Shown here one piece after another: positions 3,198 through 34,628 of a stretch of 64,000 bases of DNA. Below the pieces are notes generated by a model that worked only from the letters and a program-made list of their open reading frames with translations, did no database searches and was not told where the DNA came from. Within the stretch, counting starts at the first letter, position 1, and each line of letters begins with the position of its first letter. Made by a program: the position numbers and the translations under genes. This DNA is from Planctomycetota bacterium (GTDB lineage: Bacteria; Planctomycetota; UBA11346), in assembly GCA_014193115.1 (NCBI GenBank), contig BJHQ01000007.1:1-64000 (forward strand). The letters run 5' to 3'.

Positions 3198-3316
3198 GGC
3201 GGGCGGAAGGTTAGGTCTACCCGCAGCGACGCCAGCCTGGCCTGCCCGCGGATCGGCCAGCACTGCCGAACCAATTCGGATGGATGACCCGCCGTGGCCG
3301 CCCTTCCAGATCCGGC

Positions 3317-5050: not shown

Positions 5051-6040
5051 TCAAGGCTTTGCACCGTCGACCTTCTTCTTTTCCCGCACAAAGCCCATCA
5101 AATATCGATGCCGATCCATGGTCAAGGTTATCGTCGCTGATTTCTGAGGGAACGGATGCGTGTCCTGGTTTCCGGCATAATCCATATCGACCCACTGGCT
5201 GAATTCGAAATCTCCCGGAGGTGGTACCAACATCACCGTGACCTTCGATCCAGCCGGATAACTGGGTAGATCTGGAACCAGGGTGAAGGTCCCCCATACT
5301 CCAGTGGCCCATAGTTCCCGCATCGAGACGAGGCGGAGTTGGTAGTTCTTCCATACGGGTTTCAATCCGAATGCCTGAAGGAATGTTGCCGCCGAGAGAG
5401 TCTCGCCGACCGCGCTGAGGTGGCAGCCGTCCCTGGTCGGATCGGTGCCAGGCAGACGCTTCCCATCTTTGGTGTTGGCCGTGATATGCGCGACGTGGGC
5501 AGCGTTGAGATCAATCAAGGGGCAATTGACTTCTGCCGCGACGGAGCGGGCCATTGCCGCGTACGGTTCCATCGTCTTGAGGTCCCGAAGAGTGGTCGGC
5601 GCGCACAACACTGCGCTCATCTTGCGCTCGCGGATGTCCTGGACCATCCTGCGCAGATTGTCGCCATAGGCAGGGATTCCTGCGCCGCGTCCGGTGTCAT
5701 TGAGTCCGATGTTGATCACGACCACCGTCGGCACCCGGCCGCCTTTATTCAGCAACTGGTCTAGGTGCGGTGCCACGAACTTCACATGGTCGACAGACGT
5801 TGCTCCGCTGCCGCCATGGAATCCATCGACCAGGAGATTTTTGCCCGGAAGCTGCTCCTGCACGGCCTGGTTGGTCAGCGGAACGTATCCGGCCGGTTTC
5901 GTGCCGTCTTCAGTGGTCGAGTCGCCGATAACATAGACATAATCGTTCGGTTTGAGGTCATAGACCTTTGCGTGCTCGTAGGCCGAAACCTGTCCGATCG
6001 CGATCATGACCAGGATTCTGAAGAAGAAAGACAACATCAT
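5051..6040 (-). CDS. Secreted SGNH/GDSL hydrolase with C-terminal InlB-like repeat domain
   Basis: Likely an extracytoplasmic esterase or deacetylase acting on an acylated carbohydrate; the substrate is unknown. The 329-residue product has a signal peptide (about residues 1-20), SGNH block I as GDSTT (Ser41), block III as GLND (Asn114), and block V as DGCH (Asp204, His207), so the catalytic set is complete. The last 70 residues (YPAGSKVTVMLVPP, then a Trp, then TMDRH) look like a divergent InlB B-repeat, a surface or carbohydrate-associated module. The ATG at 6040 has a GGAG sequence about nine bases upstream. It is last in a unit with a paralogue (6124-7101) and a propeller protein (7136-9175). 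Confidence 0.85.
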   Translation of the reverse strand: MMLSFFFRILVMIAIGQVSAYEHAKVYDLKPNDYVYVIGDSTTEDGTKPAGYVPLTNQAVQEQLPGKNLLVDGFHGGSGATSVDHVKFVAPHLDQLLNKGGRVPTVVVINIGLNDTGRGAGIPAYGDNLRRMVQDIRERKMSAVLCAPTTLRDLKTMEPYAAMARSVAAEVNCPLIDLNAAHVAHITANTKDGKRLPGTDPTRDGCHLSAVGETLSAATFLQAFGLKPVWKNYQLRLVSMRELWATGVWGTFTLVPDLPSYPAGSKVTVMLVPPPGDFEFSQWVDMDYAGNQDTHPFPQKSATITLTMDRHRYLMGFVREKKKVDGAKP

Positions 6041-6123
6041 GGCGTGGCTCCAAAGGTGCGCAGGGTGATTCTATTATTTTCGGACCGCATTCAGATGTAC
6101 CGCAAGATCATATCGCGAACGGT

Positions 6124-7101
6124 TCAGGGACTTGATTCAGCAAAGATCCACATGGGCCGGTCCATGGTCACAGTCACTTTGTCGGTGGTGTCCTTGACTG
6201 TTCCCTCGAAATTGAACCACCTGACGAACTTTGCTCCAGCGTCCGGGGTGAAGGTCAGGGTGACCTTAGTGCCCGGATCATAGGCCGGACGTTCCTTTTC
6301 GCCCGATGGTGCCGGGTCGGCCTTGATCTGACCTTTTCCTTTCACGGAAAGGCACAGTTGGTATTTCTTCCAATCGGGCTTGAGGCCCAGCGCCTTCAAG
6401 ATGGTCTGCGCCGACAACGTATTGCCCAGGACGCCCAGATGCAGGCCGATCACTGGTTCCTCCGTATCAAATAACTGCGTTCCGGTCAGAACCTTTCCAT
6501 CCTTCATGTTTTTGGTGACATGATCAGCATAGGCGGCGTACAGATCGATGAGTGGACATTTAAGCTCGGTGGCCAAGACGCGCGCAGCCTCCGCGTAGGG
6601 TTTTGTCTGATCGTAACCGGCCCACAGCGTCGGTGTGGTGAGGATCACCGTCTGCCTCCGCTCACGCAGCAAACCCACGGCTTCGCGCAGTTTCCTGGTA
6701 TAAGGTTCTACACCGCCCGGACCGGCCTTGGAGTCGTTGAGTCCTAGGACGATGATGGAGATGGTCGGAGCCGGTTCTGACTGCCGCAATTTCTCAAAGA
6801 ATTTGGCTCCAAGAATCCATCCGTCAGGTCCAAGCAACGAATCTGTGGTCCGAGTGTTCTTGCAGATCGCGCTGACTTTAACTCCAGGAATCTGTTCTTC
6901 CATGGCCTGATTTAGGAGCTGGACGTAGCCAGTCGGTTTCAAGCCGCCCGCTGTTGTCGAATCGCCGAAGATGACGATGTGGTCCTTGGCCTGGAGTTGC
7001 TGCACGGCCGGCTGCTCATAGGCAGAGGCCGGCGCGGCCATCTGCCCTGCAACAAGAAGGAATGCCAACGCGGCATGACGGGTCGTGGCTGTGGCGTTCA
7101 T
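6124..7101 (-). CDS. Secreted SGNH/GDSL-like protein, paralogue with an altered block V
   Basis: The 325-residue product parallels its downstream neighbour: signal peptide (residues 1-27), GDSTT (Ser48), GLND (Asn122), and a C-terminal InlB-like repeat ending VTVTMDRPMW. The two share most landmarks and probably arose by tandem duplication. In block V the Asp three residues before the catalytic His is replaced: the segment reads IGLH (Ile218, His221) where the neighbour has DGCH. Some SGNH enzymes work with a Ser-His dyad, so activity may be reduced, altered or lost. It starts 34 bases after the stop of the upstream propeller gene and 83 bases before the next gene, consistent with an operon. 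Confidence 0.82.
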   Translation of the reverse strand: MNATATTRHAALAFLLVAGQMAAPASAYEQPAVQQLQAKDHIVIFGDSTTAGGLKPTGYVQLLNQAMEEQIPGVKVSAICKNTRTTDSLLGPDGWILGAKFFEKLRQSEPAPTISIIVLGLNDSKAGPGGVEPYTRKLREAVGLLRERRQTVILTTPTLWAGYDQTKPYAEAARVLATELKCPLIDLYAAYADHVTKNMKDGKVLTGTQLFDTEEPVIGLHLGVLGNTLSAQTILKALGLKPDWKKYQLCLSVKGKGQIKADPAPSGEKERPAYDPGTKVTLTFTPDAGAKFVRWFNFEGTVKDTTDKVTVTMDRPMWIFAESSP

Positions 7102-7135
7102 GGTGTGGTTTCAGAAAGAGGTTTGATGGTCAGCA

Positions 7136-9175
7136 CTACGGTTTCTTCGCCGGTGCACGCAGGTCATAACAATAGATGGCATCGCGTCCGCGCATGAACA
7201 TCCGGCCATCCACCACCGGGCTGGGCGTACCCATATTGGCATAGGCCGTGGTGTGGGCGTGGGGCGGATCCCACTCCGGGTGTGCTGCTGGGGTCTTTCC
7301 GCGCATTGTTTTCGTCGGGTCAAGCACCCGGAAATCACTGGGATCGCTGGTCAGCATCTGCATGCAATACCCCCCATGACGGCCTTCGGTGTTGATGAAG
7401 AGGCGATTGTCGGCCAACCAGATTGCCTGATTGCGGGCGCCGCCAGCGCCATCCGCTCGCGCCAATTCCTTGCCGGTGGCCAGATCCAGACAGAAAACCG
7501 ATTGAAAAGCTGACACATACACCCGGCCAGTTCCTGCCGCCATGCCCACTCGATCGACCACCTCAACCGGTGAATTCCAGCGCCAGATCTCCTTCATGCC
7601 ATCGGTGGCAAGCCGATAGGCGATCAAGGCCCCTCCGCCGCCGGAACCTTCGCCTTGTTTGTTAAGCTTTGCGTCTAATTGCTTGGCACAACCAATCAGA
7701 ATTCCATCTGCGATCATGGTCAGGTCGTTGTCCCCGACCAGAGCCGAGGGCTGCTCCCAGGCCTGCTTGCCGGTGAGCGGATCCACGCATTGCACCATCA
7801 CTGGCGAATGCGGTGCGGCGTTCAACAATATCAGGCTGGTGCGTTCCTGATCCCTCCAGGGCAAGGCCGTAGAACATGCCCAAGGGCTGCATTTCGCCTC
7901 CCAGAGCAGCTTGCCGCTGGCGACATCCATGCCGGCCAAACCGAGGTGCGTCACGGTCTCGCCGATGACGCAGGCGCCCGGTCCCAAAGCCGGCGCACCG
8001 CGCTGTTTTGCAGAGGTGTATTCCCAGAGCACCTTTCCGGTCTTGGCGTCTAATGCCGCCATGTGCTGTTCCAGATCGAATACGAACACCCGTCCGCCAG
8101 CGACGGTCGGTGAGGGGTTCATTCCGCGCCACTTGTGCTGTTGGACGTTTTTGAATCGGGCGGATAATGTAGTGCGCCACAGGGTCTGCCCAGTCGCGCC
8201 ATCGAGACAGGCGACCACCGTGTCGTTCTTCTCCCGGAACAGGTCATCAACCTTTTCCTGGGGAAAAACCTGCTCTCCGTAGACCGCTTTCCATTCCTTG
8301 ACGATTGCTTCGTAGTCTCCGCGGACCTTGATTCCCCTGCCATCGAAAGGTTTGCCGCGCGCGGGGACATAATGGCAGACATACACCCGGCCATCGGCAA
8401 CGACCGGCGTCGCACTGCCGCCACGGTTGTTGGTGGCGTGGAAATCGATGGCGGAACTATTGTTCCCCCATCCGCAGCCCAGAGGTTCCTCGCTTTTCCA
8501 TACCGGTTTCGCCAGCGCCAGGTCGGTGATTAAAGAACAGTTGCTGTCGGGACCGCGATAGCTGCCGCCTTCACCAAAATGCCACGGCCAATGCTGATCG
8601 GTCCGCAACGGTTCCTTGGCCGCGATCAACCGCCCCGCAACGGCGCCGGTGGTTTCCGGCGCGGCAACGAAGCCAAAAGGAACCTTTCCGGTGAACCGTA
8701 CCGTATAGGAGCCGCTGATGGCGGTACCGCTGATGGTGGTGTCCAAGGAAATCGTGATCACGGACGGACCGATGATCTCGCCCAGATGGATGTTCCCGGA
8801 CAGGCGTTCACCGGTTCGTTTCACGGTGATCTCGCGCACCCAACCCCGGCCATTCCCGCGACCGGTCGTTGTAGATGAGGCGATCCAGGCCATGACTCCG
8901 TGCTGCTCGCGCAGACCCAGGATCAGACGCGCCGATTCCTTGTTTAAACCCCAGCAACCAGCCAGATCCAGTTCCGCCAACTGATAGTCGCCGGTCAGCG
9001 TCTCGGTCAGGTCCTTGCCCACCGAGACCGGTCCCGCCGGCGGGGGAAAGTACAGCGATTGGCTGGTATCGGATTCGGCTGCGCAGGCTAAGCCCACGGC
9101 CGCGATACCCATGCCGATGACCCATAGGGCCGTCAGCCAAGAGCAAGCAGGGTGTACGGAAAAGCGATTACTCAT
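7136..9175 (-). CDS. Secreted PQQ-like beta-propeller protein
   Basis: The 679-residue product begins with a signal peptide (MSNRFSVHPACSWLTALW, cleavage near the Ala-Cys-Ala-Ala stretch). Residues of about 50-180 form a beta-rich region that I do not recognise (repeated ISLDTTISGTAISGSYTV-like strands). The remainder consists of PQQ/BamB-like propeller blades, seen as repeated VACLDGATGQTLWRT, AALDAKTGKVLWEY and CLDLATGKELA. Such secreted propellers are numerous in planctomycetes and usually lack proven function; no catalytic residues are evident. The ATG at 9175 was chosen for the signal peptide; the frame is open to 9214 but the extra codons run into the operator. It heads the unit with the two SGNH genes and sits 29 bases downstream of operator copy 1. 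Confidence 0.85.
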   Translation of the reverse strand: MSNRFSVHPACSWLTALWVIGMGIAAVGLACAAESDTSQSLYFPPPAGPVSVGKDLTETLTGDYQLAELDLAGCWGLNKESARLILGLREQHGVMAWIASSTTTGRGNGRGWVREITVKRTGERLSGNIHLGEIIGPSVITISLDTTISGTAISGSYTVRFTGKVPFGFVAAPETTGAVAGRLIAAKEPLRTDQHWPWHFGEGGSYRGPDSNCSLITDLALAKPVWKSEEPLGCGWGNNSSAIDFHATNNRGGSATPVVADGRVYVCHYVPARGKPFDGRGIKVRGDYEAIVKEWKAVYGEQVFPQEKVDDLFREKNDTVVACLDGATGQTLWRTTLSARFKNVQQHKWRGMNPSPTVAGGRVFVFDLEQHMAALDAKTGKVLWEYTSAKQRGAPALGPGACVIGETVTHLGLAGMDVASGKLLWEAKCSPWACSTALPWRDQERTSLILLNAAPHSPVMVQCVDPLTGKQAWEQPSALVGDNDLTMIADGILIGCAKQLDAKLNKQGEGSGGGGALIAYRLATDGMKEIWRWNSPVEVVDRVGMAAGTGRVYVSAFQSVFCLDLATGKELARADGAGGARNQAIWLADNRLFINTEGRHGGYCMQMLTSDPSDFRVLDPTKTMRGKTPAAHPEWDPPHAHTTAYANMGTPSPVVDGRMFMRGRDAIYCYDLRAPAKKP

Positions 9176-9204
9176 GCTATTATTTACTACCCGTTCTGAC
9201 GATC

Positions 9205-9234
9205 GTTGCGCCAAAATCTACGCGGCTTGCGACA
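9205..9234 (-). promoter_or_regulatory. Operator-like 30-bp motif, copy 1 (upstream of propeller/SGNH unit)
   Basis: First of four related 30-mers. On the plus strand it reads GTTGCGCCA, three variable bases, TCTACGC, a variable base, GCTTG, then CGACA. Across the four copies 23 of 30 positions are invariant. On the transcribed (minus) strand it is a set of CGTAAA/CGCAAC-like direct repeats, the usual layout for AraC-family operators. It lies 29 bases upstream of the ATG of the propeller gene; an AGTAAAT sequence follows in between and may be part of the promoter. Binding by the regulator at 28257-29450 is inferred. Confidence 0.75.
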
Positions 9235-9271
9235 AGCTCTCGATGCATGCAAAATCGACCAGCTTGGCGTA

Positions 9272-11491
9272 TCACTTTTTGACCGGTCCGGCATTCGCCG
9301 ACTCCACATTCGCCGCAGGCGCTTTCACCGCAGGCGCTTTCACCGCAGGCGCATGCGCTGCAGCATCCACTGTAGGTTTTTTCGCGTCTACAGGCCGGGG
9401 CTCCGGTGGTTTTGGCGGCGGCAAAGCAGGAAAGAGAAAGGTACGTTCGCCGATGGTCAGGCCATTATCGATCACGGCCATTTCAGGGTGCTCGCCGGTT
9501 GGTGAACACGTCAGTACATTGATAAGTGCGGACTTGGCATATTGCTCGATCCCCTCGCGGGTTTGACCTACGCGTACCAAGGTGCGGTCGCCTGCAGTTG
9601 GGGTGAGCGATTGGGGGAGTTCCAGCGGCGATTGCCTGCGTCGCCAGACCGCGCCGTCGCTCCAGGCGATGACATGGCCGTGCGGAGCGAGGCGTCCACG
9701 GAACAATCCGTTAGCCAGGTTGAGCGACAACCGATCGCCGGCAATGGTGCCGACCACGGTTTTTCCATGGCCCCACGGATTGTCGGCGGCGATGATGAAC
9801 TGCTCACCCTGCTGATCGAGATGGATGGCCAATTCCCGTGAACAGCTCCAGTCACCAGTGAGGTCGAATCGGGAAACGCGGTCGGCATCCCCGAAATCTC
9901 CAACGATCTGCGGTCCTTGCGTGATCACCACACCATCGATCGAGCCCGATCGATTCAGGTCGATCATGATGCGCGGCGCTTTGCTCTCGTCCCGGCTGAA
10001 ATGCACCAGCCAGCGTTTATCGCTGACTTCATTCATGCGAATGATTTCTCCTGGCACTCCCCCGGCGAACCCAGTGGCGCCGAGGAAATTGAACATGTAG
10101 CGCCGTCCATGAGCCCAAATCCGGCATCGGCCACTGGGATTTGTCGCAGTGGCCAATGACCGATTCTTGTTGGGATCATCATGCGTGAGCATGAACGCGA
10201 CCAGAATATCATCGGGTCCTGACCATGCATTGCGCATCATTAGTGTTGAAAAAGCCTTGGAATCAATGCGGGTTGATCCCACCTGGACGTGGGCAGGAAG
10301 AACCTCACCGGGATACCGCGCTGGTTCTTCGAACGGCCAGTTGATCAGCGCCAGCATCGAACGGTGCGGATACGGACCGACGGTATCGAAATCATTCTGG
10401 CCATCCTTCACGCCGCTGGATGGAAAATCCCGTCCCAGCGTCGAGACGCAGAAATGTTCATATACCCAGCGTAACGCGGCGCGCCGGTCCGGGCTGGCGA
10501 TGCCCATGGCTTGGACGAATTGGCCGCCCCCGGCCAACTCAATACGATTTAGATGCTGGCTGCCCATGGGTGCGTGATCGTAGGGTACTACCAATTGCAG
10601 GCCGCATCGGGCCGGCATCGCCAGCCAGAGCAGGCGATCGACCAGGGTCTGAATCTTGGGCTGGATTTTGGCCAGATCGACACCACCGGCGACCCTCAGA
10701 GACTGGATCGCCAAGGGCAGCGTGACATCACGCAACGCATCGGTCAGGTCGTTATCACGTCCACCCACTCCATACGGAGAGATCTGTGCGAATTCGCTCG
10801 TTATGGTATAGATATGATCGGTGGCCGGTATCACCAAACGCAACGGTTGACTGCCGAGGGTGTCGCCTGCGAAGGCAAGCCCATAGAGGATTTTCGCGCT
10901 CCCGCTGCACGTCATCATCACCTCTGCAGTCAATGCCTGAAATATCTGCGTACGTACCTCGTCTGACCAGACGTCATAGCACAGGTCATACGCCATGGCC
11001 AAGGCCGCGACCGCGGCGCCGCTGTACTCGCCGCCCGCTGGGGCTTTCAAACCGAAGCGGGCATCCCGATCACTCTGCCCATGGGCGACCAGGATGGCCG
11101 CCTCGCGCGCTGCGTCAGCAGCGGCCTTGTCGCCGGTGAGATGCCAGAGCATGCCATAGCCGACCGCGTGGAAGATCGTGAACACTTTGCCCACCGGCTC
11201 TGACATCAGATCGCCGGGATCATTGCCAGCTGGCAGCGGATTGCGCTTGGCAGGCAGGGTGTTGCCGGCACCGCTATCCAACTGGAAGCGCAAACGGGCA
11301 ATGATCTGTTTGCCTTCCGAAGTAGCCGCCCTGGCTTTCAGTTTGTCCAGGTCGGTGGTTCTGAAGAAAAGGCGAGGATGCTCGTTGGGCGCGGGTTTGA
11401 CGAAACCGGGCACGCTGGAATCCTTGGCAGGTTCGCCGCCCTGACATACGGCGGCGACTAGCACTGCGATCATGATGACGATGCGTGGCAT
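9272..11491 (-). CDS. Heparinase II/III-like secreted protein, cassette A
   Basis: Predicted secreted (alpha/alpha)-toroid protein of 739 residues, possibly a polysaccharide lyase or glycan-binding protein. A signal peptide (MPRIVIMIAVLVAAVCQGG) is followed by the HPRLFFRTTDLDKLKARA start seen in heparinase/alginate-lyase-like families, then helical segments such as GYGMLWHLTGDKAAAD and AGGEYSGAAVAALAMAYDL. A beta-rich C-terminal region contains DLTGDWSCSREL, VVGTIAGD and ISWSDGAVWRR-like strands (here VIAWSDGAVWRR). The extreme end is an Ala/Pro/Lys-rich tail of about 50 residues with a 15-bp DNA repeat. The ATG at 11491 is only 11 bases after the DUF1552 stop; the frame remains open far upstream, but those codons overlap DUF1552. 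Catalytic residues cannot be assigned with confidence. Confidence 0.8.
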   Translation of the reverse strand: MPRIVIMIAVLVAAVCQGGEPAKDSSVPGFVKPAPNEHPRLFFRTTDLDKLKARAATSEGKQIIARLRFQLDSGAGNTLPAKRNPLPAGNDPGDLMSEPVGKVFTIFHAVGYGMLWHLTGDKAAADAAREAAILVAHGQSDRDARFGLKAPAGGEYSGAAVAALAMAYDLCYDVWSDEVRTQIFQALTAEVMMTCSGSAKILYGLAFAGDTLGSQPLRLVIPATDHIYTITSEFAQISPYGVGGRDNDLTDALRDVTLPLAIQSLRVAGGVDLAKIQPKIQTLVDRLLWLAMPARCGLQLVVPYDHAPMGSQHLNRIELAGGGQFVQAMGIASPDRRAALRWVYEHFCVSTLGRDFPSSGVKDGQNDFDTVGPYPHRSMLALINWPFEEPARYPGEVLPAHVQVGSTRIDSKAFSTLMMRNAWSGPDDILVAFMLTHDDPNKNRSLATATNPSGRCRIWAHGRRYMFNFLGATGFAGGVPGEIIRMNEVSDKRWLVHFSRDESKAPRIMIDLNRSGSIDGVVITQGPQIVGDFGDADRVSRFDLTGDWSCSRELAIHLDQQGEQFIIAADNPWGHGKTVVGTIAGDRLSLNLANGLFRGRLAPHGHVIAWSDGAVWRRRQSPLELPQSLTPTAGDRTLVRVGQTREGIEQYAKSALINVLTCSPTGEHPEMAVIDNGLTIGERTFLFPALPPPKPPEPRPVDAKKPTVDAAAHAPAVKAPAVKAPAANVESANAGPVKK
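9315..9352 (-). repeat. 15-bp tandem repeat in the tail of heparinase-like gene A
   Basis: Two and a half copies of GCAGGCGCTTTCACC (plus strand; 9315-9329, 9330-9344, then eight bases). It encodes the repeated Ala-Val-Lys-Ala-Pro units of the low-complexity C-terminal tail and keeps frame because the unit is 15 bp. Confidence 0.9.
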
Positions 11492-11502
11492 GGAGTCCCC
11501 GG

Positions 11503-12840
11503 TCAGGCGGTGAGCAGGTCGGCGACCTTGCCATCGGCATTGGCGAACTTCGGTTCGTCGATGCCATAGCAGGTCAGCAACGTGGCGAAGAGATTTCCGA
11601 GGTTGCCATCGGGATAGCGCAGATGGCGGCCATGCTTCAACCCGAGCTTGGTGCCTCCGATCAGCAAGGTCGGGTAGTTGCGATTCCAGTGGACATCGCT
11701 GCACTGGCTGCCGAACAGGATGATGGTGTTGTCGAGCACGCTGCCGTCGCCTTCCTTTAATTCGGACAGCCGTTTGGCCAGTAGTCCGACCTGATCGCTC
11801 ATGCATTGGCACCAGATTCCCCAATTCTTGTAATAGTCGGGATTGCCGCTGTCGTGGCTCAGTCCATGGGTGTCCAGCACTCCGCACAGTTTGGAAATAT
11901 GTTCATTATGCCCGACTTCAGGTTGCAACGTGAACTGCGCCGTGCGCGATGAATCGGTAGCAAAGGCGAGGACAATGGTTTCGATGTGGTTGGCGAAGTA
12001 TCGTTCGAGCTGGGCGCGATCCTTGCAGGTGGACGTACCTGAGGGCCAGGCATCGATCTTCGCATCGACCGTGGGACGTGGCTTGTCGAGCCAGGACTCG
12101 GCGCGGATCAGATTCTTTTCGCTCTCGCGGATCGCCTCCAGGTGCTGATCCAGGCGTTGACGATCGGCGCTCCCGAGCTGAACATGCAACGCTTTGGTTT
12201 GCATGAGCGCGAGATCGAGTACGCTCCGCTCCTGAACGTATAAAGCGCGCTGTCGTTCGATCGACTTGGCGTCACGTCCGAACAGCAATTCAAACGTTTT
12301 TCGAGGATCGCACTGCGCCGGAACTGCCTGGCCGCGCGCATCGAAGGTACGTGCCGGCGGTGCAACCGTGCTTCCTGCTGCCGGAGAACTGGTCAGGACC
12401 AGCGACGGCTGGAAAACCTCCTGGGCGGTGCGATCAGCGATCAGGCCGTCGATAGAAATGCTGTTCTTTCCGTAAGGCCGCGCCCCGGTCAGCCACTGCG
12501 CGGTGCAGGAGTGACCATCTGAAATGCGGGCCAGATGATGGTCCATACCGCTGACAAAGGTCATCTGGTCGCGGAACGGAACGAGGGCGCGATGAATCTC
12601 GCTGAGTGCATAATCACGGCCGGTCTTGGTCGGGAACCAGCTCCACGCATCGCGATGCCCGTGACCTGGTGGGGGCAGCGGAACACCCAAGCCGAAATTC
12701 ATCGAGACGAACCGAGCTGGTGGTTTGACCGGCGAGGCGCCAGTACCATCGCCGGCCCAGCCCATCGCGTCGAGCAAGGGCAGAGCGATGGTGGCTGCGG
12801 CAGATTTCAGGACTGTTCGGCGATCGATACGGAACGTCAT
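11503..12840 (-). CDS. DUF1552 family protein with Tat signal, cassette A
   Basis: The 445-residue product belongs to DUF1552, a family found beside PSD-type cytochrome proteins in planctomycetes and related bacteria, with unknown function. The N-terminus has a twin-arginine signal (DRRTVLKSAAATIALPLLDA), so it is probably exported folded, perhaps with a cofactor. Further landmarks are the conserved PARFVSMNFGLGVPLPPPGH, GMDHHLARISDGHSCTAQWL and SHDSGNPDYYKNWGIW. The ATG at 12840 has AGGAGCC just upstream. It starts 13 bases after the PSD stop and ends 11 bases before the heparinase-like start, so the three genes are very likely co-transcribed and translationally coupled. It resembles the cassette C copy more than the B copy in the segment around its PEVGHNEHIS motif. 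Confidence 0.9.
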   Translation of the reverse strand: MTFRIDRRTVLKSAAATIALPLLDAMGWAGDGTGASPVKPPARFVSMNFGLGVPLPPPGHGHRDAWSWFPTKTGRDYALSEIHRALVPFRDQMTFVSGMDHHLARISDGHSCTAQWLTGARPYGKNSISIDGLIADRTAQEVFQPSLVLTSSPAAGSTVAPPARTFDARGQAVPAQCDPRKTFELLFGRDAKSIERQRALYVQERSVLDLALMQTKALHVQLGSADRQRLDQHLEAIRESEKNLIRAESWLDKPRPTVDAKIDAWPSGTSTCKDRAQLERYFANHIETIVLAFATDSSRTAQFTLQPEVGHNEHISKLCGVLDTHGLSHDSGNPDYYKNWGIWCQCMSDQVGLLAKRLSELKEGDGSVLDNTIILFGSQCSDVHWNRNYPTLLIGGTKLGLKHGRHLRYPDGNLGNLFATLLTCYGIDEPKFANADGKVADLLTA

Positions 12841-12853
12841 GGTAGGCTCCTGG

Positions 12854-15415: not shown

Positions 15416-15550
15416 CTTTGTCCATTCGGACCCTGCACAGCGCACTCGAACATCGGGACGCCATCCGACAGTTTCGAAAAGTCGTTTTACGCGGGTGGCC
15501 AGGTCGTAATATAGGCTCATGGCTAGGCTTACGTGGCACTTGCCATACTT

Positions 15551-15580
15551 GTTGCGCCAAGTTTTACGCCGTTTACGACA
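15551..15580 (-). promoter_or_regulatory. Operator-like 30-bp motif, copy 2 (cassette A)
   Basis: Plus strand: GTTGCGCCA, AGT, TTTACGC, C, GTTTA, CGACA. It matches copies 1, 3 and 4 at the 23 invariant positions. It is 136 bases upstream of the chosen start of PSD gene A and 30 bases upstream of an in-frame ATG at 15520; a CGTAA sequence sits 17 bases after the motif on the minus strand, at the same place as in copies 3 and 4. The rest of the gap 15416-15644 shows no other gene. Confidence 0.8.
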
Positions 15581-15644
15581 AATCAGGAAGCCCGGCAGAA
15601 TCACTTGGGGCAACTTGCCGCCAATCGTGGCCTGTTACTGCACC

Positions 15645-17723: not shown

Positions 17724-17734
17724 GGGGATCAGGC

Positions 17735-19069: not shown

Positions 19070-19083
19070 GACGGGCTCCTGGA

Positions 19084-21651: not shown

Positions 21652-21795
21652 GATCCCTATGTCATGCATGAATAAATACCCTGGAAAGCTCGCGGTTGCC
21701 GATCGGATCATGGAGGATCTCAGGCCGGAGCAGCCTGAATCATCTGCGACCAAGCGACCGTGCATATTCTTGTTTACGTAGGAGATCTGCCGACT

Positions 21796-21825
21796 GTTGC
21801 GCCAGAGTTTACGCAGATTCCGACA
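21796..21825 (-). promoter_or_regulatory. Operator-like 30-bp motif, copy 3 (cassette B)
   Basis: Plus strand: GTTGCGCCA, GAG, TTTACGC, A, GATTC, CGACA. It lies 30 bases upstream of an in-frame ATG at 21765 and about 144 bases upstream of the chosen PSD start. A CGTAAAC sequence follows at the conserved position 17 bases after the motif on the minus strand. The gap 21652-21927 shows no other gene. Confidence 0.8.
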
Positions 21826-21927
21826 TTCCTGGGTCCTGGCTGAGCATTGCGATCCATCTACCCGTGATTTACGTCGGCCGTCCTCGGCCAGCGATTGGCT
21901 TGCAGAGGGTAGCCGTTCCACGCGGGT

Positions 21928-24087
21928 TTACGGCAACTTGGTGGCTGCTGCTTTGGGTTGATCAGCTTTGGTCCCAGACCCAGCCGACGGTTTGGTTCCG
22001 CCTTCAGCTTGCGGCGCCGGACTCGGAGCATTCGGGTCAGGAGAAAATGAGAAGCTTCGTTCGCCGACGGCGACCACGGGGAAATCTCCACCCACGCAGG
22101 TGAACTCTTCATGCCGACCGTCCGCAGAGCAGGTCAAAATGCACATCAACGTGTTGCGTGGTTTGTTGTTGGTCTGCCGTACCAGCGTGCGCTGACCAGG
22201 CTCGGAGGTCAGTCTCATCGGAGCCTCCAGCGGCGAACTGGTGCGCCGCCAGACGGCGCCGTCCTCCCAGGTGATCACGTGGCCATGGGGTGCAACCAAG
22301 CCGCGAGCCACACCATTGCCGGTACGGATCAGGGAAACCTGATCGCCGACGATGCGACCGACCACGGGCTTCCCGTTCCCCCAGGGATTGTCGGCGGCGA
22401 CGTGGAAGGCACTGCCTTCCTGATTGACGCTCACGGTCAAAGACGATGAACAGCGCCATTGTCCGCCGAGATCGAAGCGCGTGACGCGGTCGGCGTCGGG
22501 AAGGTCGCCAATGATGTTCACCGCTTCGGTGATGATCACAGCGTCACGTCCGTCACGGCCGCCGAGATCGACAATCAAGCGCGCCGGTGGCGGATGAGAT
22601 GTACTTGCCCCCCAGTTCTTTGAGAACGACACCAGCCAGCGCCGCTCAGCGACCTGCTTGAGACCATACACTAAACCGACTGGTCGATCGAACCCATTGC
22701 TGGTCCCCACCATCACGTAGCGCTTACCACATGCCCAGATCCGGCACAGCAGACCCGGCTTGCGTGGCTCTGCCAGTTCGCGTCCCTGTAGTCCCACACC
22801 ACCCATGATCGTCACCACGATGTCGTCGGGACCGTTCCAGCCACCGCGGAAGATGCAGATCGGGATCCCCCGGTTCGCATCTTCCGCCGTCACGATGGGC
22901 GGCAGAACCGTGGCTGGATCGCGGGCCGGCTCGTCGAAGGGCCAGCAGGTCAGCGCAAGCATGGCGCGGTGGGGGTAAGGACCGACCGTGTCGTAGTCGT
23001 GCTCTCCATCGCGCACACCGCTGTTTGGGTGGTCACGGCCGAGCCTTGGTACGCAAAAATGTTCGTAGATGAAACGCAAGGCGGACCGCTGCACGGGCGT
23101 GGACATCGCCATGGCCTGCACGAACTCTCCGCCACCGGCCAAGCCGGTACGATCCAGATGCTGTCCGTACATCGGTAAATAGTCGTAGGGCAACGCCAAT
23201 TGCAGGCCGCTTGGCCCGGGCACCGCGAGATAGATCAGACGGTCGACCAATTGACCGAGGCGCGGCTGGCCGGCAACCAGGTCGATGCCGCCAGCGACGC
23301 GCGACGCGTGAACGACGAGCGGCAGCAAAACATCGCGCATGGCATCATGCACGTCCACATCTCGCCCACTGAAGCCGAAAGGTGGCAACCGGGCGAGTTC
23401 GCCGGACAACCTCGACAAGGGATCGTTGGTACGGATCGGCTTGCCGCCAATGGCATCGCCAGCCACGGCAAGTTGCCACAGCACGGCCGCGAGAAAAGAA
23501 GGATTGCCGCTCTTGGCAGTCGATTCTATGGCGTCGACGACCCGTTGGCGCGTGGCATCGTCCCAGGCGTCATGGCACAGATCGTAGGCCAGCGCCAAGG
23601 CCGCCACAGCGGCGCCACTGTACTCGCCGCCGGCAGGTGCTTTCAGGCCAAAGCGCGCGTCGCGATCGCTCTGTCCGCTGATTACCAACATGGCGGCTTC
23701 GCTGGCCAGCTCGGCGGCGGCTTTGTCGCCGGTCAACCGCCACAACATGCCATAGCCGGCAGAGTGGAAGAGCGTGAACACGCTGCCAACGGGCTCTGAC
23801 AGCAGCTCGCCGGGATCATCGCCAGCCGGCAACGGGTTGCGCTTGGCCGGCAAGGTGGTGCCAGAGCCACCATCCAACTGGTAGCGCAACCGGGCAATGA
23901 TGCGTTTGCCTTCCGGTGTCGCCGCTCGTTCCTTCAGTTTGGCGAGGTCGGCGGCTCTGAAGAACAGTCGGGGATGCTCATTGGCAGCGGGTTTGACGAA
24001 ACCAGGCACGCTGAAATCCTTGGCCGGCTCGCCAGCAGGACAGCAGCTGATGGCCATCAGCAGGATCACGACAATGAATCGTGGCAT
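21928..24087 (-). CDS. Heparinase II/III-like secreted protein, cassette C
   Basis: The 719-residue paralogue has a signal peptide (MPRFIVVILLMAISCCPAG), the HPRLFFRAADLAKLKERA start, GYGMLWRLTGDKAAAE, AGGEYSGAAVAALALAYDL, a middle region clearly diverged from A and B (IFRGGWNGPDDIVVTIMGG), and the beta-rich end with TWEDGAVWRR. The tail is Pro/Ala/Gly/Lys-rich (about 40 residues). The divergent middle compared with the nearly constant PSD and DUF1552 partners suggests that this component changes fastest, possibly following different substrates. It lies 43 bases downstream of DUF1552 gene C, a wider gap than in the other cassettes. Confidence 0.8.
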   Translation of the reverse strand: MPRFIVVILLMAISCCPAGEPAKDFSVPGFVKPAANEHPRLFFRAADLAKLKERAATPEGKRIIARLRYQLDGGSGTTLPAKRNPLPAGDDPGELLSEPVGSVFTLFHSAGYGMLWRLTGDKAAAELASEAAMLVISGQSDRDARFGLKAPAGGEYSGAAVAALALAYDLCHDAWDDATRQRVVDAIESTAKSGNPSFLAAVLWQLAVAGDAIGGKPIRTNDPLSRLSGELARLPPFGFSGRDVDVHDAMRDVLLPLVVHASRVAGGIDLVAGQPRLGQLVDRLIYLAVPGPSGLQLALPYDYLPMYGQHLDRTGLAGGGEFVQAMAMSTPVQRSALRFIYEHFCVPRLGRDHPNSGVRDGEHDYDTVGPYPHRAMLALTCWPFDEPARDPATVLPPIVTAEDANRGIPICIFRGGWNGPDDIVVTIMGGVGLQGRELAEPRKPGLLCRIWACGKRYVMVGTSNGFDRPVGLVYGLKQVAERRWLVSFSKNWGASTSHPPPARLIVDLGGRDGRDAVIITEAVNIIGDLPDADRVTRFDLGGQWRCSSSLTVSVNQEGSAFHVAADNPWGNGKPVVGRIVGDQVSLIRTGNGVARGLVAPHGHVITWEDGAVWRRTSSPLEAPMRLTSEPGQRTLVRQTNNKPRNTLMCILTCSADGRHEEFTCVGGDFPVVAVGERSFSFSPDPNAPSPAPQAEGGTKPSAGSGTKADQPKAAATKLP

Positions 24088-24130
24088 GGGCGCTCCGATC
24101 AGGCGGTGGAGAGGTCAGCCGGAGATCCCG

Positions 24131-25465
24131 TCAAACGGCGAGCAGTTCGGTGATCTTGCCGTCGGCATGAGCGAACTGCGGTTCATTGATGCCGTAGCAG
24201 GTCAGCAACGTGGCAAGCACATTGCCGAAATTGCCATCGGGATAGCGCAGATGCCGGCCATGTTTCAGGCCAAGTTTTTCCCCACCGATCACCAGGGTCG
24301 GATAGTTTTGACTCCAGTGCACATCGCTGGTCTGGCTGCCAAACAGGATGATGGTGTTATCGAGTACGGTTCCGTCTCCTTCCTTCAATTCGGACAGCCG
24401 TTTGGCCAGGAGGCCGACCTGATCGCTCATGCATTGGCACCAGATGCCCCAATTCTTGTAATAGTCGGGATTGCCGCTGTCGTGGCTCAGGCCGTGGGTG
24501 TCGAGCACTCCGCACAGCGTGGAAATATGCTCATTATGATTTACCTCAGGCTGCATGGTGAACTGCGCGGTGCGTGATGAATCAGTGGCGAAGGCTAAGG
24601 CGATGGTCTCGATGTGGTTTGCGAAATACCGTTCGAGCTGGGTGCGATCCTTGCAGGTGGAAGTGCCCGAAGGCCAGGGATCGATTTTCGCATCGACCGT
24701 GGGACGCGGCTTGTCGAGCCACGACTCAGCGCGTTTCAGATTCTTTTCGGTATCGCGGATCGCCTCCAGGTGCTGATCCAGTCGTTGGCGGTCCGCACTC
24801 CCCAGCTGGGCATGCAATTCCTTGGCCTGTCTGAGGTTGAAATCGATCACGCTGTGTTCCCTGGCGATCTGGGCGCGTTGGCGCTCAATCGACTTGGCGT
24901 CACGCCCGAACAGCAGTTCGAAGGTTTTTCGCGGATCACATTGCGCCGGCACTGCCTGGCCACGCGCATCGAAAGTCCTCGCTGGTGGTGCGATGGTGCT
25001 CCCTGATCTACTTGAGCCGGTCAGGACCAGCGACGGCAGGAAGACCTCCTGAGCAGTGCGATCCGCGATGAGGCTGTCGATGGAAATGGTGTTTTTTCCC
25101 AGAAATTCCGCACCGGTCAGCCATACCGCGGTACCGCCATGGCCACCTCCAGGGCGCGCCAGACGGTGGTCCGTCCCGCTGATGAACGTCATCCGATCAC
25201 GGAACGGCGCGAGGCTGCGGTGGATCTCGCTGAGGACGTAGTCGCGTCCGGTCCGGGTTGGAAACCAGCTCCATGCATCGCGATGGGCGTGTCCGGGTGG
25301 CGGCAGGGGCACGCCCAGACCGAAATTCATCGAGACGAACCGGGCCGGTGGCGCTGCCGGACCAGATCCGGGCTCGCCGGCCCAGCCCATCGCATCGAGC
25401 CAGGGCAGGGCGATGGTGGCGGCAGCCGATTTCAGAACGGTGCGACGGTCGAGGCGAAGGGTCAT
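24131..25465 (-). CDS. DUF1552 family protein with Tat signal, cassette C
   Basis: The 444-residue paralogue has a twin-arginine signal (DRRTVLKSAAATIALPWLDA). Core motifs match copies A and B, but the segment after GTDHRLARPGG differs: A and B have DGHSCTAQWLTGARP while C has GHGGTAVWLTGAEF. This replaces a Ser-Cys pair present in the other two. The C-terminal half, including PEVNHNEHISTLCGVLDTHG, follows copy A. Function unknown; predicted exported and encoded directly after PSD gene C (15-base gap). Confidence 0.9.
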   Translation of the reverse strand: MTLRLDRRTVLKSAAATIALPWLDAMGWAGEPGSGPAAPPARFVSMNFGLGVPLPPPGHAHRDAWSWFPTRTGRDYVLSEIHRSLAPFRDRMTFISGTDHRLARPGGGHGGTAVWLTGAEFLGKNTISIDSLIADRTAQEVFLPSLVLTGSSRSGSTIAPPARTFDARGQAVPAQCDPRKTFELLFGRDAKSIERQRAQIAREHSVIDFNLRQAKELHAQLGSADRQRLDQHLEAIRDTEKNLKRAESWLDKPRPTVDAKIDPWPSGTSTCKDRTQLERYFANHIETIALAFATDSSRTAQFTMQPEVNHNEHISTLCGVLDTHGLSHDSGNPDYYKNWGIWCQCMSDQVGLLAKRLSELKEGDGTVLDNTIILFGSQTSDVHWSQNYPTLVIGGEKLGLKHGRHLRYPDGNFGNVLATLLTCYGINEPQFAHADGKITELLAV

Positions 25466-25480
25466 GGTTGGCTCCTAGGA

Positions 25481-28048
25481 TCAACGCGTGCGGAACAACG
25501 GGCTGAGAACGAGGGCAATGACCAAGTCACGGGTACCGCCACCGGCAGCGGTCCAGCGTTTGGCCACGTCATCGAGCAGCGACTGGTCGCTGAACTCCAT
25601 GGTCCGGCCGAGCAGGTACGATGCGAGTCGATTGACCAGGGAATGGTCGAAACGTTCCTTGGCAGCGCTCCCAAGATACTTGCGCAGGTCGTCCAGCCCG
25701 TTCACCGCGGTGCCATCCGGCAGGGTCGACGTGCATTCGATCGCCTGACCGGTCCACACCGTGTGCCGACCGCCTGACATGTCGAAGACGAAATAGCGGC
25801 TGCGCGCTTCGTTGCGGGGCAGGCCGGTGGGATCGTAACGCTCGAAAGGCAGTCCATAGGGATCGATGCTGGCGTGGCAATCGCGGCAGGCATCTTTGTT
25901 GCGATGGGCGATCAATCGCTGAGTCAGCGACAGCCCGGAGAAGTCTTCGGGCACCGATGGCACCGCCGGTGGCGGATCGCCCGGCGGTTGATCGAGTAAG
26001 TTGCGCCGGAACCATACTGCGCGCTTGATCGGATGGGAATGCTCGCCGGTCGAATTCATCAGATGCACGGCCGATAGATGCAGGATGCCGCCTTGGCGAC
26101 CGGAGCCGGCCTCGGGGACCGCAACGAAATCGTTGCCAGGCACCAGCGGAATCCCGTACTGTCGGGCCATGCGCCGGTCGACCACGAGGAAATCAGCATT
26201 GATCAGGCTGGCTGACGGCAGGTTCTTGCGGAAGACCGTGGCAACGAAATGGCGGGCTTCGTCGCGCATCGCCTCCTTCAAGAGTCCTGGTTCAACCGCG
26301 GTGAAGAACTCAGGATTGATGTTCACGTTGTCGAGAGCGTGCAATCCGAGATAGGCGTCGGCGAAGCCGAGCAGGAAGCGGTCACTGCACGGATCGGCCA
26401 GCAGGCGTTCGGCTTCGTGGCGCAGGCCAGCATCGCTGATCAGAACGCCTTTGGCACAGGCGTCATGCAGCACCGGATCAGGCAACGTGCCGGTCAAGCC
26501 AAAGGACAATCGCGATGCCAGAGCCCAGGCATTGAGCGGTGTACGCTCAGCGCCATCACGGACCGGCTCGGTGAAATAGACGAAATTCGGATTGATCAGG
26601 ACATTGGCCAGCGTCTCGCGCAGCGTTTCGATCGGACCTGGGAAATGCGCCCGCATGCGCTGGTGGAAATCCAGGAAGGTCTCGACTTCAGCCGAGGTCG
26701 GAGGCCGCCGCCAAGCCCGTTGCATGAAGCGGGCAAGGATTCGTTTGACACCCTCTGCGTCATCCACGGAGTCATTGCCGACGATGGCGACGTGGGACGG
26801 AGGCGGCCACGAAGCATAATAGGGGATCTCGACCGTGGCTTCATGAAGCAGGAGGATCGGATTCAGTTTGGTTGTTTTCTTTTTCTGATCCGGCAGATAG
26901 CGAGCTTCCATCGCCGGTGTCGCCAAAGGATCCATCAGCAGATCTGGCTCGGTCTGGCGGATGAAAATGACGTGGCCATGGTCGGGCAGAGCAAGTAGCT
27001 GCCAGGGCATGCGGAACTCAATTTCGGTCGGAGTCGCGCTGGTGACCAGGGCCTGACCGACGAACTGGTGGGGCGATTCGTTCTCGGCTCGACCGATGTC
27101 AACCCGCAGGTTGGGAATCTGGTCGCCATCGGGGCGGCCGCTGACCTTCGCCACCACACGGAGTTCACCAATTCGCGGTATGACCTTGTAAGCGCCCATG
27201 TGCCACCGCACACCACCTCCCATGACCGCGCCGGAGCCGATCATGTCGCGAAACACACGCGGCAGCACGATCGCCCCGTCGAGCAGTGTTATCGAACCGT
27301 TCAATTGCGGTTCTTCATGCCATGGGACCTTGATCGGCAAGTCGAAGACGGTTTCCACGAGAACATCGTTGGTGCGGTGCTTGCGGACCTCCCCGTCATT
27401 GTTGTTCCGGCCAGGCGCCGGTTTCAACGTCGCCTTCAAACCTGGAGGCTTTCCGCCGGTGACCAGAGCCTCGGCCAGACCGGCCCGGGCACGATCGAGT
27501 AGCACCGCCAAGTGGGTGGTATTGAACGACATCTCCCGGCTGTCGTTGGCGAATCCGGTTTCGCGATTGCGGTTTTCCTCGGGGAAACCCTGGCCGAAAT
27601 CGACGATGGTGACGCCGAGCAGGTCCTTCATCGATTGCACGTATTCGGTGCGGGTCAGCCGGCGCATGGCCCCCTGGCCGCCGGTGCTGCTATGCACCTT
27701 GGCCGCCAGCCGCAATTCCTGGCGCAGCCACGATAGCAGCTTCTGGCGCTCGTCACTGGTCGGCTGGATGGCATGCTTGGGCGGCGGCATCTCCAAAACC
27801 TGGGTCTTGTTCAGGACTTCTTCCCAACCATGAAGCGTCTTTCCGTGCACGATGTCGGGATCGAGGTTGTCGACCCGGAAATTGCCCTTCTGAACCTTGG
27901 CTGAGTGGCACTCGACGCAGGTTCTGTCGAGCAGCGGTTTCACATGCTGGCGATACGTCGCGAGATCGGCGGCGGGTTCACCGGCGGCGGTGGTCGCGAC
28001 CAGGGCCAGGATGGCCACGAAAGCAACTAGGAAATATGAGCGGCGCAT
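25481..28048 (-). CDS. Secreted di-haem PSD-type protein, cassette C
   Basis: The 855-residue paralogue starts at an ATG (28048) with a strong GGAGGG Shine-Dalgarno and a signal peptide (MRRSYFLVAFVAILALVATT). It has a CVECH haem motif (Val instead of the Ala in A and B), DUF1587, a beta-rich segment, DUF1595, DUF1592, DUF1588 with CRDCH, and DUF1585. The N-terminal 130 residues after the haem domain are identical to copy B at the DNA level. The frame is open to 28342, overlapping the divergent regulator; an in-frame ATG at 28171 lies 30 bases from operator copy 4. First gene of the cassette next to the regulator. Confidence 0.9.
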   Translation of the reverse strand: MRRSYFLVAFVAILALVATTAAGEPAADLATYRQHVKPLLDRTCVECHSAKVQKGNFRVDNLDPDIVHGKTLHGWEEVLNKTQVLEMPPPKHAIQPTSDERQKLLSWLRQELRLAAKVHSSTGGQGAMRRLTRTEYVQSMKDLLGVTIVDFGQGFPEENRNRETGFANDSREMSFNTTHLAVLLDRARAGLAEALVTGGKPPGLKATLKPAPGRNNNDGEVRKHRTNDVLVETVFDLPIKVPWHEEPQLNGSITLLDGAIVLPRVFRDMIGSGAVMGGGVRWHMGAYKVIPRIGELRVVAKVSGRPDGDQIPNLRVDIGRAENESPHQFVGQALVTSATPTEIEFRMPWQLLALPDHGHVIFIRQTEPDLLMDPLATPAMEARYLPDQKKKTTKLNPILLLHEATVEIPYYASWPPPSHVAIVGNDSVDDAEGVKRILARFMQRAWRRPPTSAEVETFLDFHQRMRAHFPGPIETLRETLANVLINPNFVYFTEPVRDGAERTPLNAWALASRLSFGLTGTLPDPVLHDACAKGVLISDAGLRHEAERLLADPCSDRFLLGFADAYLGLHALDNVNINPEFFTAVEPGLLKEAMRDEARHFVATVFRKNLPSASLINADFLVVDRRMARQYGIPLVPGNDFVAVPEAGSGRQGGILHLSAVHLMNSTGEHSHPIKRAVWFRRNLLDQPPGDPPPAVPSVPEDFSGLSLTQRLIAHRNKDACRDCHASIDPYGLPFERYDPTGLPRNEARSRYFVFDMSGGRHTVWTGQAIECTSTLPDGTAVNGLDDLRKYLGSAAKERFDHSLVNRLASYLLGRTMEFSDQSLLDDVAKRWTAAGGGTRDLVIALVLSPLFRTR
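27468..27866 (-). repeat. 399-bp tract identical to 21071-21469
   Basis: Within PSD gene C; partner of the tract in PSD gene B. It encodes part of the region from the end of the haem domain through DUF1587. Confidence 0.88.
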
Positions 28049-28201
28049 GGTCCCTCCGTTCGCGATGTCCATCAAGGATACATAACCTGCAAATCCGGCG
28101 TTCGCCAATCGGATCGGGAAAGGCTCCGGACGGATGAGTTCAGGATCGGCTACGACCAAGTACTCGTTCATGCCCTTGTTTACGCTGCCATTCCGCAGAT
28201 C

Positions 28202-28231
28202 GTTGCGCCATCCTTTACGCTGTTTACGACA
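28202..28231. promoter_or_regulatory. Operator-like 30-bp motif, copy 4 (divergent: cassette C and regulator)
   Basis: Plus strand: GTTGCGCCA, TCC, TTTACGC, T, GTTTA, CGACA. On the minus strand CGTAAA appears twice, nine bases apart, then CGCAAC 12 bases later, and again CGTAAAC 17 bases after the motif. It sits between the PSD gene C start and the regulator start (25 bases before the ATG at 28257), so it could control both directions, including autoregulation. Confidence 0.8.
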
Positions 28232-28256
28232 TAACGCAAAGCCTGGAAAGTGCCTT

Positions 28257-29450
28257 ATGACCGACCTGCCATCTTCAGCGCCGACCATCTTGACCGTGCT
28301 TGATCCGCGACTGCCGGAATCCGTGGCGGTGGTCAGCGGCATCCGTCAGCACGCGCCCGGATGGAAATTGGTGGTCAACCTGTGGGATCTGGCGTTCACC
28401 AGCAGCCATAGCGACGCCCCGACCCTCTTGGCGGCACTCACTGGCCTGCCCCGAATACACGCCACCATCGGCCATCTGCACTCGAATCGTCTGATGGATT
28501 GGGCGAAGGCGTTGGGTGGTCCGGTGGTGAACTTGGCTACGGCGTGGATGGAACCCGGAGTCCATTATGTGATCGTCGATGGCTTCCTGGCCGGCAAGCA
28601 GGCCGGAGCACATTTGCGGATGCGAGGGGTGCGCCGATTCGCCTGCGTCACCCGTGCGTATGGCATGTTTCCTCAGGTCACCAGAAAAGATGAGGAACGG
28701 TTCGGTTCACAAAAACGCGTGGTGGGCTTCCGTGAAGAAATCGGCGATATCGCGCTTTTCATTGCGGGCGATTTCTCGCCTGACCGGGTCGCGCCGATCC
28801 TGACCTGGATCCGTGCTGGTGGTGGACCGGCTGGAATCTTCGTTACCAGCGATGCAGTCGCTCGCCAACTGCTGACAGTACTCGAAGATGCAGGAGTTCG
28901 GGTACCGCTCGATGTCCTCGTGGTATCGTCCGATGACGAAGTCGGCATGTGCCAGGCTTGCCGGCCAACTCTGAGCAGCGTACGCATGCCCTACCAGGCG
29001 ATCGGGAGGCGGGCTGCTGAAGTGGTCACCGAATTGCTCGCCGGAGGCCCGGCACCAGAAACCGTCCTGTTGCCTCCCCTTGGGGTCAGCGTCCGGGTCT
29101 CAAGCGATATCGTCGCTTGCGACGATCCGCTCACCAAGCGCTGTCTGAACTGGATGCATGAGCACAGCGAAAGCAGCATCCGCCAGGTCGATGAAATCTG
29201 CAAGGCGGTATCCACCTCACGACGGGCGCTGGAGCGACGGTTCGCAGCCACCATCGGAATCAGCCCCGGTGAAATGCTGCGCCGCATTTGCCTCGATGCC
29301 GCAGGCCGGCGCCTGCTGACCAGTGACGCTCCGGTGGCCGAGATCGGTCGACGGGCCGGGTTCACCAGCGCGACGGCCTTCGACCGCGCTTTCCGCCAAG
29401 TGACCGGCAGCACACCGCTTGCGTGGCGAAAACAACAGAGCGGACGGTAG
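28257..29450 (+). CDS. XylR-like AraC-family transcriptional regulator
   Basis: The 397-residue product has an N-terminal periplasmic-binding-protein-like sensor (SAPTILTVLDPRLPES start, then repeated Rossmann-type segments such as GPAGIFVTSDAVARQLL and VVSSDDEVGMCQACRP) and a C-terminal AraC-type helix-turn-helix (QVDEICKAVSTSRRALERRF, then AEIGRRAGFTSATAFDRAFR). This is the layout of XylR, which senses a sugar and activates catabolic genes, and it is common in PVC bacteria. I chose the ATG at 28257, with a GGAAAG sequence about ten bases upstream, over an earlier ATG at 28134 that would place the operator inside the gene. It is divergent to cassette C and the only regulator near the four operator copies, so it is the best candidate to bind them. 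Confidence 0.9.
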   Translation: MTDLPSSAPTILTVLDPRLPESVAVVSGIRQHAPGWKLVVNLWDLAFTSSHSDAPTLLAALTGLPRIHATIGHLHSNRLMDWAKALGGPVVNLATAWMEPGVHYVIVDGFLAGKQAGAHLRMRGVRRFACVTRAYGMFPQVTRKDEERFGSQKRVVGFREEIGDIALFIAGDFSPDRVAPILTWIRAGGGPAGIFVTSDAVARQLLTVLEDAGVRVPLDVLVVSSDDEVGMCQACRPTLSSVRMPYQAIGRRAAEVVTELLAGGPAPETVLLPPLGVSVRVSSDIVACDDPLTKRCLNWMHEHSESSIRQVDEICKAVSTSRRALERRFAATIGISPGEMLRRICLDAAGRRLLTSDAPVAEIGRRAGFTSATAFDRAFRQVTGSTPLAWRKQQSGR

Positions 29451-34616: not shown

Positions 34617-34628
34617 TTCAGCGGGTAC

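Follow-up and report, generated by a model that had tools for sequence, protein, structure and literature searches.

A candidate sugar-responsive regulon in a Planctomycetota bacterium combines three PSD–DUF1552 cassettes with predicted pseudo-lyase toroid proteins

In freshwater Verrucomicrobia, genes encoding PSCyt3 domains are usually located beside one gene family of unknown function, reach many copies in some genomes and lie near sulfatase and carbohydrate genes, and a role in carbohydrate metabolism has been suggested for them (He et al., 2017, PMC5615132). An array study of Rhodopirellula tabulates a secreted DUF1552 protein (PMC2754498), and DUF1501 proteins carry a twin-arginine (RR) signal and share an operon with DUF1800 (PMC5122149). 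In addition, glycan-binding pseudoenzymes derived from carbohydrate-active enzymes are described, in which the fold and the binding are kept and the catalytic residues are lost (PMC7828330). Here, we describe a locus within a window of 64,000 nt (the whole stretch of DNA analyzed; contig BJHQ01000007.1, positions 1 to 64,000) of a Planctomycetota bacterium whose genome assembly comprises 5.25 Mb in 36 contigs (GCA_014193115.1). Three tandem cassettes, each encoding a PSD protein, a DUF1552 protein and a toroid protein, and a fourth unit stand beside a divergent gene for a XylR-like regulator. The literature searched revealed no tested function for PSD or DUF1552; no description of this composition was found in the sources, which were accessible in part, one of the searches being worded too narrowly.

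We tentatively read the locus, with the chances somewhat against it, as a sugar-responsive regulon in which the XylR-like regulator would activate four operons via direct-repeat operators; in three of these operons, a predicted-exported, constant PSD–DUF1552 core is encoded together with a diversified toroid protein that would bind glycan without cutting it. On the minus strand, cassette 3, cassette 2, cassette 1 and unit 4 follow each other outward from the regulator, and every unit is headed by a copy of a 30-bp motif. The order is motif, PSD, DUF1552 and toroid within each cassette and motif, propeller, GDSL and GDSL in unit 4. This arrangement agrees in order, strands and families with an earlier sequence-only reading, which also gave the span of 5051–29450 correctly.

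The degenerate motif TGTCGNAANNNGCGTANANNNTGGCGCAAC was built from the four sites themselves and matches these exactly by construction. The informative result of the genome scan is the absence of a fifth site, even at 3 mismatches (reversed control: 0); the four sites all lie on the minus strand, one per unit. Across the four copies, 21/30 columns are invariant. Pairwise identity amounts to 77–87% inside the motif as opposed to 17–43% in the 60 bases upstream, and downstream it reaches 37–57% in the first 30 bases and 7–67% in the next 30, where units 2 and 3 form the top pair (67%). Since identity in the motif exceeds that of the flanks and only four sites occur in the genome, the motif is beyond chance and distinct from its surroundings, though units 2 and 3 have downstream sequence in common. 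Boxes resembling CGYAA lie at positions 4, 13, and 25 of the motif and create a 21-bp direct repeat, with CGGAA as first box of unit 2 and CGTAG as second box of unit 4 being the exceptions. A −10-like TAAAYA begins at position 50 (49 in unit 4; unit 1 has TAAGCC instead), followed by an ATG at position 61 (60 in unit 4, where the propeller gene likely starts from it). In units 1–3, this ATG at the same distance past the −10-like box is in frame and precedes the likelier PSD start by 35–41 codons. The propeller mRNA, with its ATG at 9175 located 5 bases past the −10-like box, may be leaderless. An AraC-type activator would need a box near −35, which is where the third box appears to sit; scans for a sigma-70 consensus and a terminator consensus revealed no signal over shuffles. 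The regulator combines a Peripla_BP_3 with a subsequent HTH_18 domain (Pfam), which we take to be the order of XylR, and it therefore qualifies as a XylR-like member of the AraC family; no NCBIfam model exceeds its cut-off among the matches listed. With four genome-unique sites beside a single XylR-like gene, the proposed architecture of a one-regulator regulon is upheld. The genome motif scan revealed no copy at the propeller gene at 29423. A large PQQ-propeller gene behind the regulator (29534–32686) lacks the putative operator, and its homologues occur near other PSD–DUF1552 units (L046, L060, and L061).

Each of the three PSD proteins contains six Pfam domains (PSCyt1, PSD3, PSD5, PSD4, PSCyt3, and PSD2) and two CxxCH motifs, and the cassette DUF1552 proteins match PF07586 with 187–205 bits (cut-off 30). 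An RR signal is visible by eye at the start of the three cassette DUF1552 proteins as well as of all 23 DUF1552 proteins of the genome, in line with the suggested pairing of a two-haem PSD protein with a Tat-type DUF1552 protein. The suggested co-occurrence of the two families is strict in this genome, where coordinates place one of 24 PSD4 genes next upstream on the same strand of each of the 23 DUF1552 genes. Conversely, labeling DUF1552 as part of a redox module is not borne out, as the model of the cassette 3 protein adopts a predicted alkaline-phosphatase/sulfatase fold with sulfatases and phosphodiesterases as nearest folds. The pair thus reads as a di-haem protein and a protein of predicted hydrolase fold. 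A sequence search of the PDB with DUF1552 and PSD returned no significant match. In the 23 DUF1552 paralogues, the conserved polar set consists of H109, D130, D208, H324, H328, and the near-invariant H383, and includes HxxSH.

The three cassette toroid proteins have no Pfam match at E <= 0.001, and none of PSD, DUF1552 and the cassette toroid receives a name from NCBIfam. The fold was predicted for the toroid of cassette 3, one of the three: the model exhibits an (alpha/alpha) toroid and a beta-sandwich as in heparinase II and PL17, with 442–497 residues aligned to PDB entries 2fuq, 8bdd, 8khv, 9o3q, and 6hzn, and upholds the earlier assignment to a heparinase-type fold. In heparinase II/III-like lyases, an Asn-His segment is catalytic. 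This segment is present in 22–23 of 24 aligned members of the wider family and in none of the six cassette-type members, which in this feature depart from such lyases (PL17, PL21, and PL35). Likewise, the Asn, His, and Glu positions are kept in 22–24/24 wider members and absent in 6/6 cassette-type members, and the cassette toroids show a deletion of about 20 residues where these positions fall. The lyase-like activity proposed in the sequence-only reading is accordingly not borne out. With these three residues absent from all six, the alignment makes a glycan-binding pseudo-lyase more likely than a lyase.

The genes of the three cassettes have diverged unequally. Identity between cassettes amounts to 80–84% for PSD, 81–84% for DUF1552 and 54–62% for the toroid. 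Nonsynonymous divergence (dN) is 0.10–0.13 for the PSD–DUF1552 pair as opposed to 0.30–0.40 for the toroid, with dN/dS ratios of 0.12–0.15 and 0.21–0.30, respectively. Since synonymous divergence (dS) is also higher in the toroid (1.33–1.43) than in the pair (0.69–0.94), part of the gap may be due to gene conversion in the PSD–DUF1552 part. The least conserved toroid stretches are residues 181–240 (23–27% identical in all three), 391–510 (17–27%) and the C-terminal tail 691–719 (7%), as opposed to 67–77% in residues 31–180. This sequence pattern is consistent with, and no proof of, variable recognition subunits around a constant core.

In unit 4, Pfam assigns one protein to the PQQ_2 propellers and the other two to GDSL (PF13472), in agreement with the esterase-like proteins noted earlier. 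The propeller scores 38.6 bits against the model of PQQ-dependent dehydrogenases (TIGR03075, cut-off 480) and thus falls outside this group. By eye, the GDSL protein at 6124–7101 keeps GDS and GLND, while GLH replaces the D-x-x-H block, so that it may be a degenerate esterase; its neighbor at 5051–6040 shows this block as DGCH.

General conservation of the trio was rejected. HMM scans covered 18 toroid regions in 10 other genomes (weak members included; contig ends lie close to the toroid gene in L080, L081, L083, and L096) and identified PSD/DUF1552 in one, L089. In the own genome, 11 of the 13 toroid regions outside the window were examined (C10:45864 and C31:8794 were left out), of which one contains a PSD–DUF1552 pair (L059), and this locus is also the only one of 20 other DUF1552 stretches with a toroid. 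At L059, other genes, one encoding an AraC-type regulator, separate the toroid from the pair, and a TonB receptor lies near the pair. The cassette-type toroid profile was run against 392 genomes of the phylum (E <= 1e-60, at most 2 candidates scored per genome) and matched the own genome and one wider-type protein of genome G211. As the only match outside the own genome, the G211 locus was not picked for its context. Located in another family of the phylum (L089; G211:C105, 5486–15941), it carries a toroid divergent from PSD–DUF1552 and a PQQ-type propeller frame behind the toroid. The wider toroid profile matched 10 of the same 392 genomes (at most 3 scored per genome). Among 59 relatives, the toroid occurs in 6, DUF1552 in 20 and both in 2, a co-occurrence no better than chance. 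DUF1552 is patchy among relatives, with 13–29 match rows in genus g5 and 28 and 29 in two relatives. G001, a genome of the same genus (81% complete), has 0 DUF1552 matches vs. 23 in the own genome (G000), and both have several toroid matches. A further match pair, P0003 (toroid, 64%) and P0038 (DUF1552, 69%), comes from the same source with a contig count of 4 and a 6718-base longest contig in common, an indirect sign of a cassette in a second species; against this, the 19687-base contig of P0002 matches no DUF1552 or PSD cluster among those listed (E <= 1e-60).

The neighbors of the pairs elsewhere in the own genome are varied and include PhyH, IclR regulators, a kinase, PQQ propellers and an MGH1-like glycoside hydrolase. 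The latter belongs to L054 (G000:C9:88000-106000, 6016–14350), which encodes a PSD protein with a PA14 domain, a DUF1552 protein that, among those of the own genome outside the window, scores best against the cassette DUF1552 by BLAST (35%) and a second divergent XylR-like gene; no sibling of the operator was found beside this unit. An AraC-type regulator lies within 5 kb of 12/21 PSD–DUF1552 units of the own genome (here the cassettes enter as a single unit, which is outside the 12). Randomly placed points on 17 contigs would give 3.95, and 0/5000 draws reached the observed count; near toroid-only loci the count is 3/10. As a general partner of PSD–DUF1552, AraC regulators were rejected on two genomes: in G015, none of the 30 AraC-type matches above cut-off comes closer than 6064 bases to any of 28 DUF1552 places, and G045 has 2 HTH_18 domains in total.

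In the proposed mechanism, the signal would be a sugar or oligosaccharide, and the regulator would bind the 30-bp motif and activate the four operons. The three toroid versions would capture variants of one acyl-substituted glycan without cutting them and present them to the PSD–DUF1552 core. The core would then chemically modify the glycan at the His-rich, probably metal-binding site of DUF1552, PSD would carry electrons by haem, and the GDSL proteins of unit 4 would strip ester (acyl) groups. A broader proposal, that the locus represents a new kind of machine for processing glycans outside the cytoplasm, in which a constant PSD–DUF1552 pair is combined with interchangeable pseudo-lyase subunits reading different glycans, triplicated under one sugar-sensing regulator, appears doubtful.

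Several alternatives have to be considered. The cassette toroids could be active lyases or epimerases using other residues, in a system that depolymerizes a uronic-acid polysaccharide outside the cytoplasm, as the sequence-only reading held; with the family positions lost in all six proteins and about 20 residues deleted there, we regard this as unlikely. Alternatively, PSD and DUF1552 may form a stand-alone periplasmic oxidoreductase, with the toroid as an incidental passenger duplicated along. Pairs without a toroid are found at 19/20 other stretches of the own genome and in relatives without any toroid match, such as G005, G020, and G022, but each of the three cassettes retains the toroid under purifying selection and behind a copy of the same putative operator, and a toroid is found near PSD/DUF1552 also in L059 and G211, which leaves the passenger quite improbable. 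It is equally improbable that DUF1552 acts as a sulfatase- or phosphatase-like hydrolase stripping sulfate or phosphate from glycan while the haem protein is structural or sensing. The nearest folds would suit such a hydrolase, whereas the conserved set of the paralogues does not, by sequence, resemble the Asp-rich metal site or Cys/Ser nucleophile motif which is usual for alkaline phosphatases and sulfatases. Finally, the motif copies may be hitch-hiking remnants of cassette duplication and no operator, given that three of the four stand before duplicated genes and that units 2 and 3 are alike in bases 31–60 downstream. This is very improbable, as the motif has stayed at 77–87% identity while the upstream bases fell to 17–43%, and the fourth copy stands before an unrelated gene.

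The regulon with non-cutting toroids, which we prefer, also faces evidence that speaks against it. A YPH histidine is retained in 6/6 cassette-type members, the residue loss is judged from an alignment, and another residue set could catalyze. Furthermore, the scanned NH form is also missing in 14/51 non-cassette proteins, mostly distant or partial, among which L069 has SNHLG. Tyrosines are mostly absent from the wider toroid family at the place of the YY that follows the EG of PL17, so that the lyase activity of this family is itself unproven. By Foldseek, the toroid and the DUF1552 model both reach low TM-scores of about 0.4, and the DUF1552 HxxSH was matched to the phosphatase DxxxH by order and spacing only. 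The higher toroid dN could also stem from a relaxation of constraint or from conversion between the genes of the pair. PSD/DUF1552 lies beside the toroid in only 1/18 regions of the 10 other genomes (L089), so that the third gene is largely not conserved beside the pair, on which the sequence-only reading had staked itself; moreover, the toroids of L089, the one trio outside the own genome, and of L059 both keep the SNH motif. The regulator is linked to the motif by adjacency. What is shown is the architecture and the loss of residues, the folds are predictions, and the binding, the chemistry and the inducer are inferred.

Coordinates are compiled in Table 1. Several listed open reading frames (ORFs) start too far upstream, the likely starts being 28048 for the PSD gene of cassette 3, 11491 for toroid 1 and 28257 for the regulator. 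Elsewhere in the window, a weak sigma-70-like protein (33927–36982, below Pfam cut-offs) is encoded beside a Ser/Thr protein kinase gene, and a second kinase gene lies at 55480–58413. A PurL-type synthetase (318–3263) and a GATase_5 glutamine amidotransferase domain (44498–45244) are encoded by separate genes about 41 kb apart.

Table 1. Features of the regulator locus and its four minus-strand units (window coordinates).
Feature	Position	Strand	Remarks
XylR-like regulator (sugar-binding-protein-like domain + AraC HTH)	28257..29450	+	divergent from cassette 3; PF13377 1.8e-23, PF12833 2.1e-20 on ORF 28134-29450; ATG at 28257
Putative operator copy, unit 3	28202..28231	-	in divergent gap; one of 4 genome sites
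PSD di-haem protein, cassette 3	25481..28048	-	six PSD/PSCyt domains; CxxCH at 44 and 721
DUF1552 (HXXSHH) protein, cassette 3	24131..25465	-	RR signal; PF07586 3.3e-60; predicted alkaline-phosphatase-superfamily fold (model me0d369be7869)
Toroid protein, cassette 3	21928..24087	-	heparinase II/PL17-like predicted fold (model m6e942be11274); without family Asn-His/Glu
Putative operator copy, unit 2	21796..21825	-	genome motif scan
PSD di-haem protein, cassette 2	19084..21651	-	PSD/PSCyt domains, CxxCH motifs
DUF1552 protein, cassette 2	17735..19069	-	PF07586 7.4e-55
Toroid protein, cassette 2 (P0005 in residue check)	15645..17723	-	58% to cassette 3 toroid; same residue losses
Putative operator copy, unit 1	15551..15580	-	genome motif scan
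PSD di-haem protein, cassette 1	12854..15415	-	PSD/PSCyt domains, CxxCH motifs
DUF1552 protein, cassette 1	11503..12840	-	PF07586 1.1e-56
Toroid protein, cassette 1 (P0006 in residue check)	9272..11491	-	54% to cassette 3 toroid; same residue losses
Putative operator copy, unit 4	9205..9234	-	genome motif scan
PQQ_2/BamB-type beta-propeller protein, unit 4	7136..9175	-	PF13360 1.2e-23 on ORF 7136-9214; ATG 5 bases past -10-like TAAATA
GDSL/SGNH-type protein, unit 4	6124..7101	-	PF13472 3.7e-12
GDSL/SGNH-type esterase-like protein, unit 4	5051..6040	-	PF13472 2.6e-17

PSD and DUF1552 genes number 20 to 30 in some genomes of the group, and the machine described above, if true, would give a first function to these two common orphan families together. 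As the locus joins PSD/DUF1552 to a putative operator unique in the genome, a regulator of sugar type and a partner whose fold can be assigned, this function becomes directly testable, and the predicted DUF1552 fold and the toroid residue loss shift which experiments are sensible. Among known systems, a SusCD-type polysaccharide utilization locus does not apply, as no TonB receptor or SusD-type Pfam match was found at E <= 0.001 in the 19 ORFs of window positions 318–36982. E. coli XylR and AraC-type activators have the domain order and the direct-repeat site near −35 that are seen at this locus; XylR serves the xylose pathway, whereas the putative targets here are haem proteins and proteins of predicted phosphatase fold. 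The heparinase II, PL17 and GAGase (PL35) lyases and dermatan sulfate epimerase have the fold predicted for the cassette toroid; in contrast to the wider family, no cassette toroid retains its Asn, His, and Glu. DUF1501 resembles DUF1552 in its Tat-type export and its operon partner of unknown function and differs in its Pfam family and in having DUF1800 instead of PSD as partner, according to the parts of the study available (PMC5122149). The accessible text on glycan-binding pseudoenzymes names pseudoglycosidases and a pseudoesterase and no pseudo-lyase (PMC7828330), a category to which the toroid would add a binder predicted from sequence. Compared to the PSCyt3 genes of Verrucomicrobia, in whose account, as far as available, none of these features appear (PMC5615132), the present locus additionally comprises a regulator, a putative operator, tandem cassettes, a toroid partner and a predicted fold for DUF1552.

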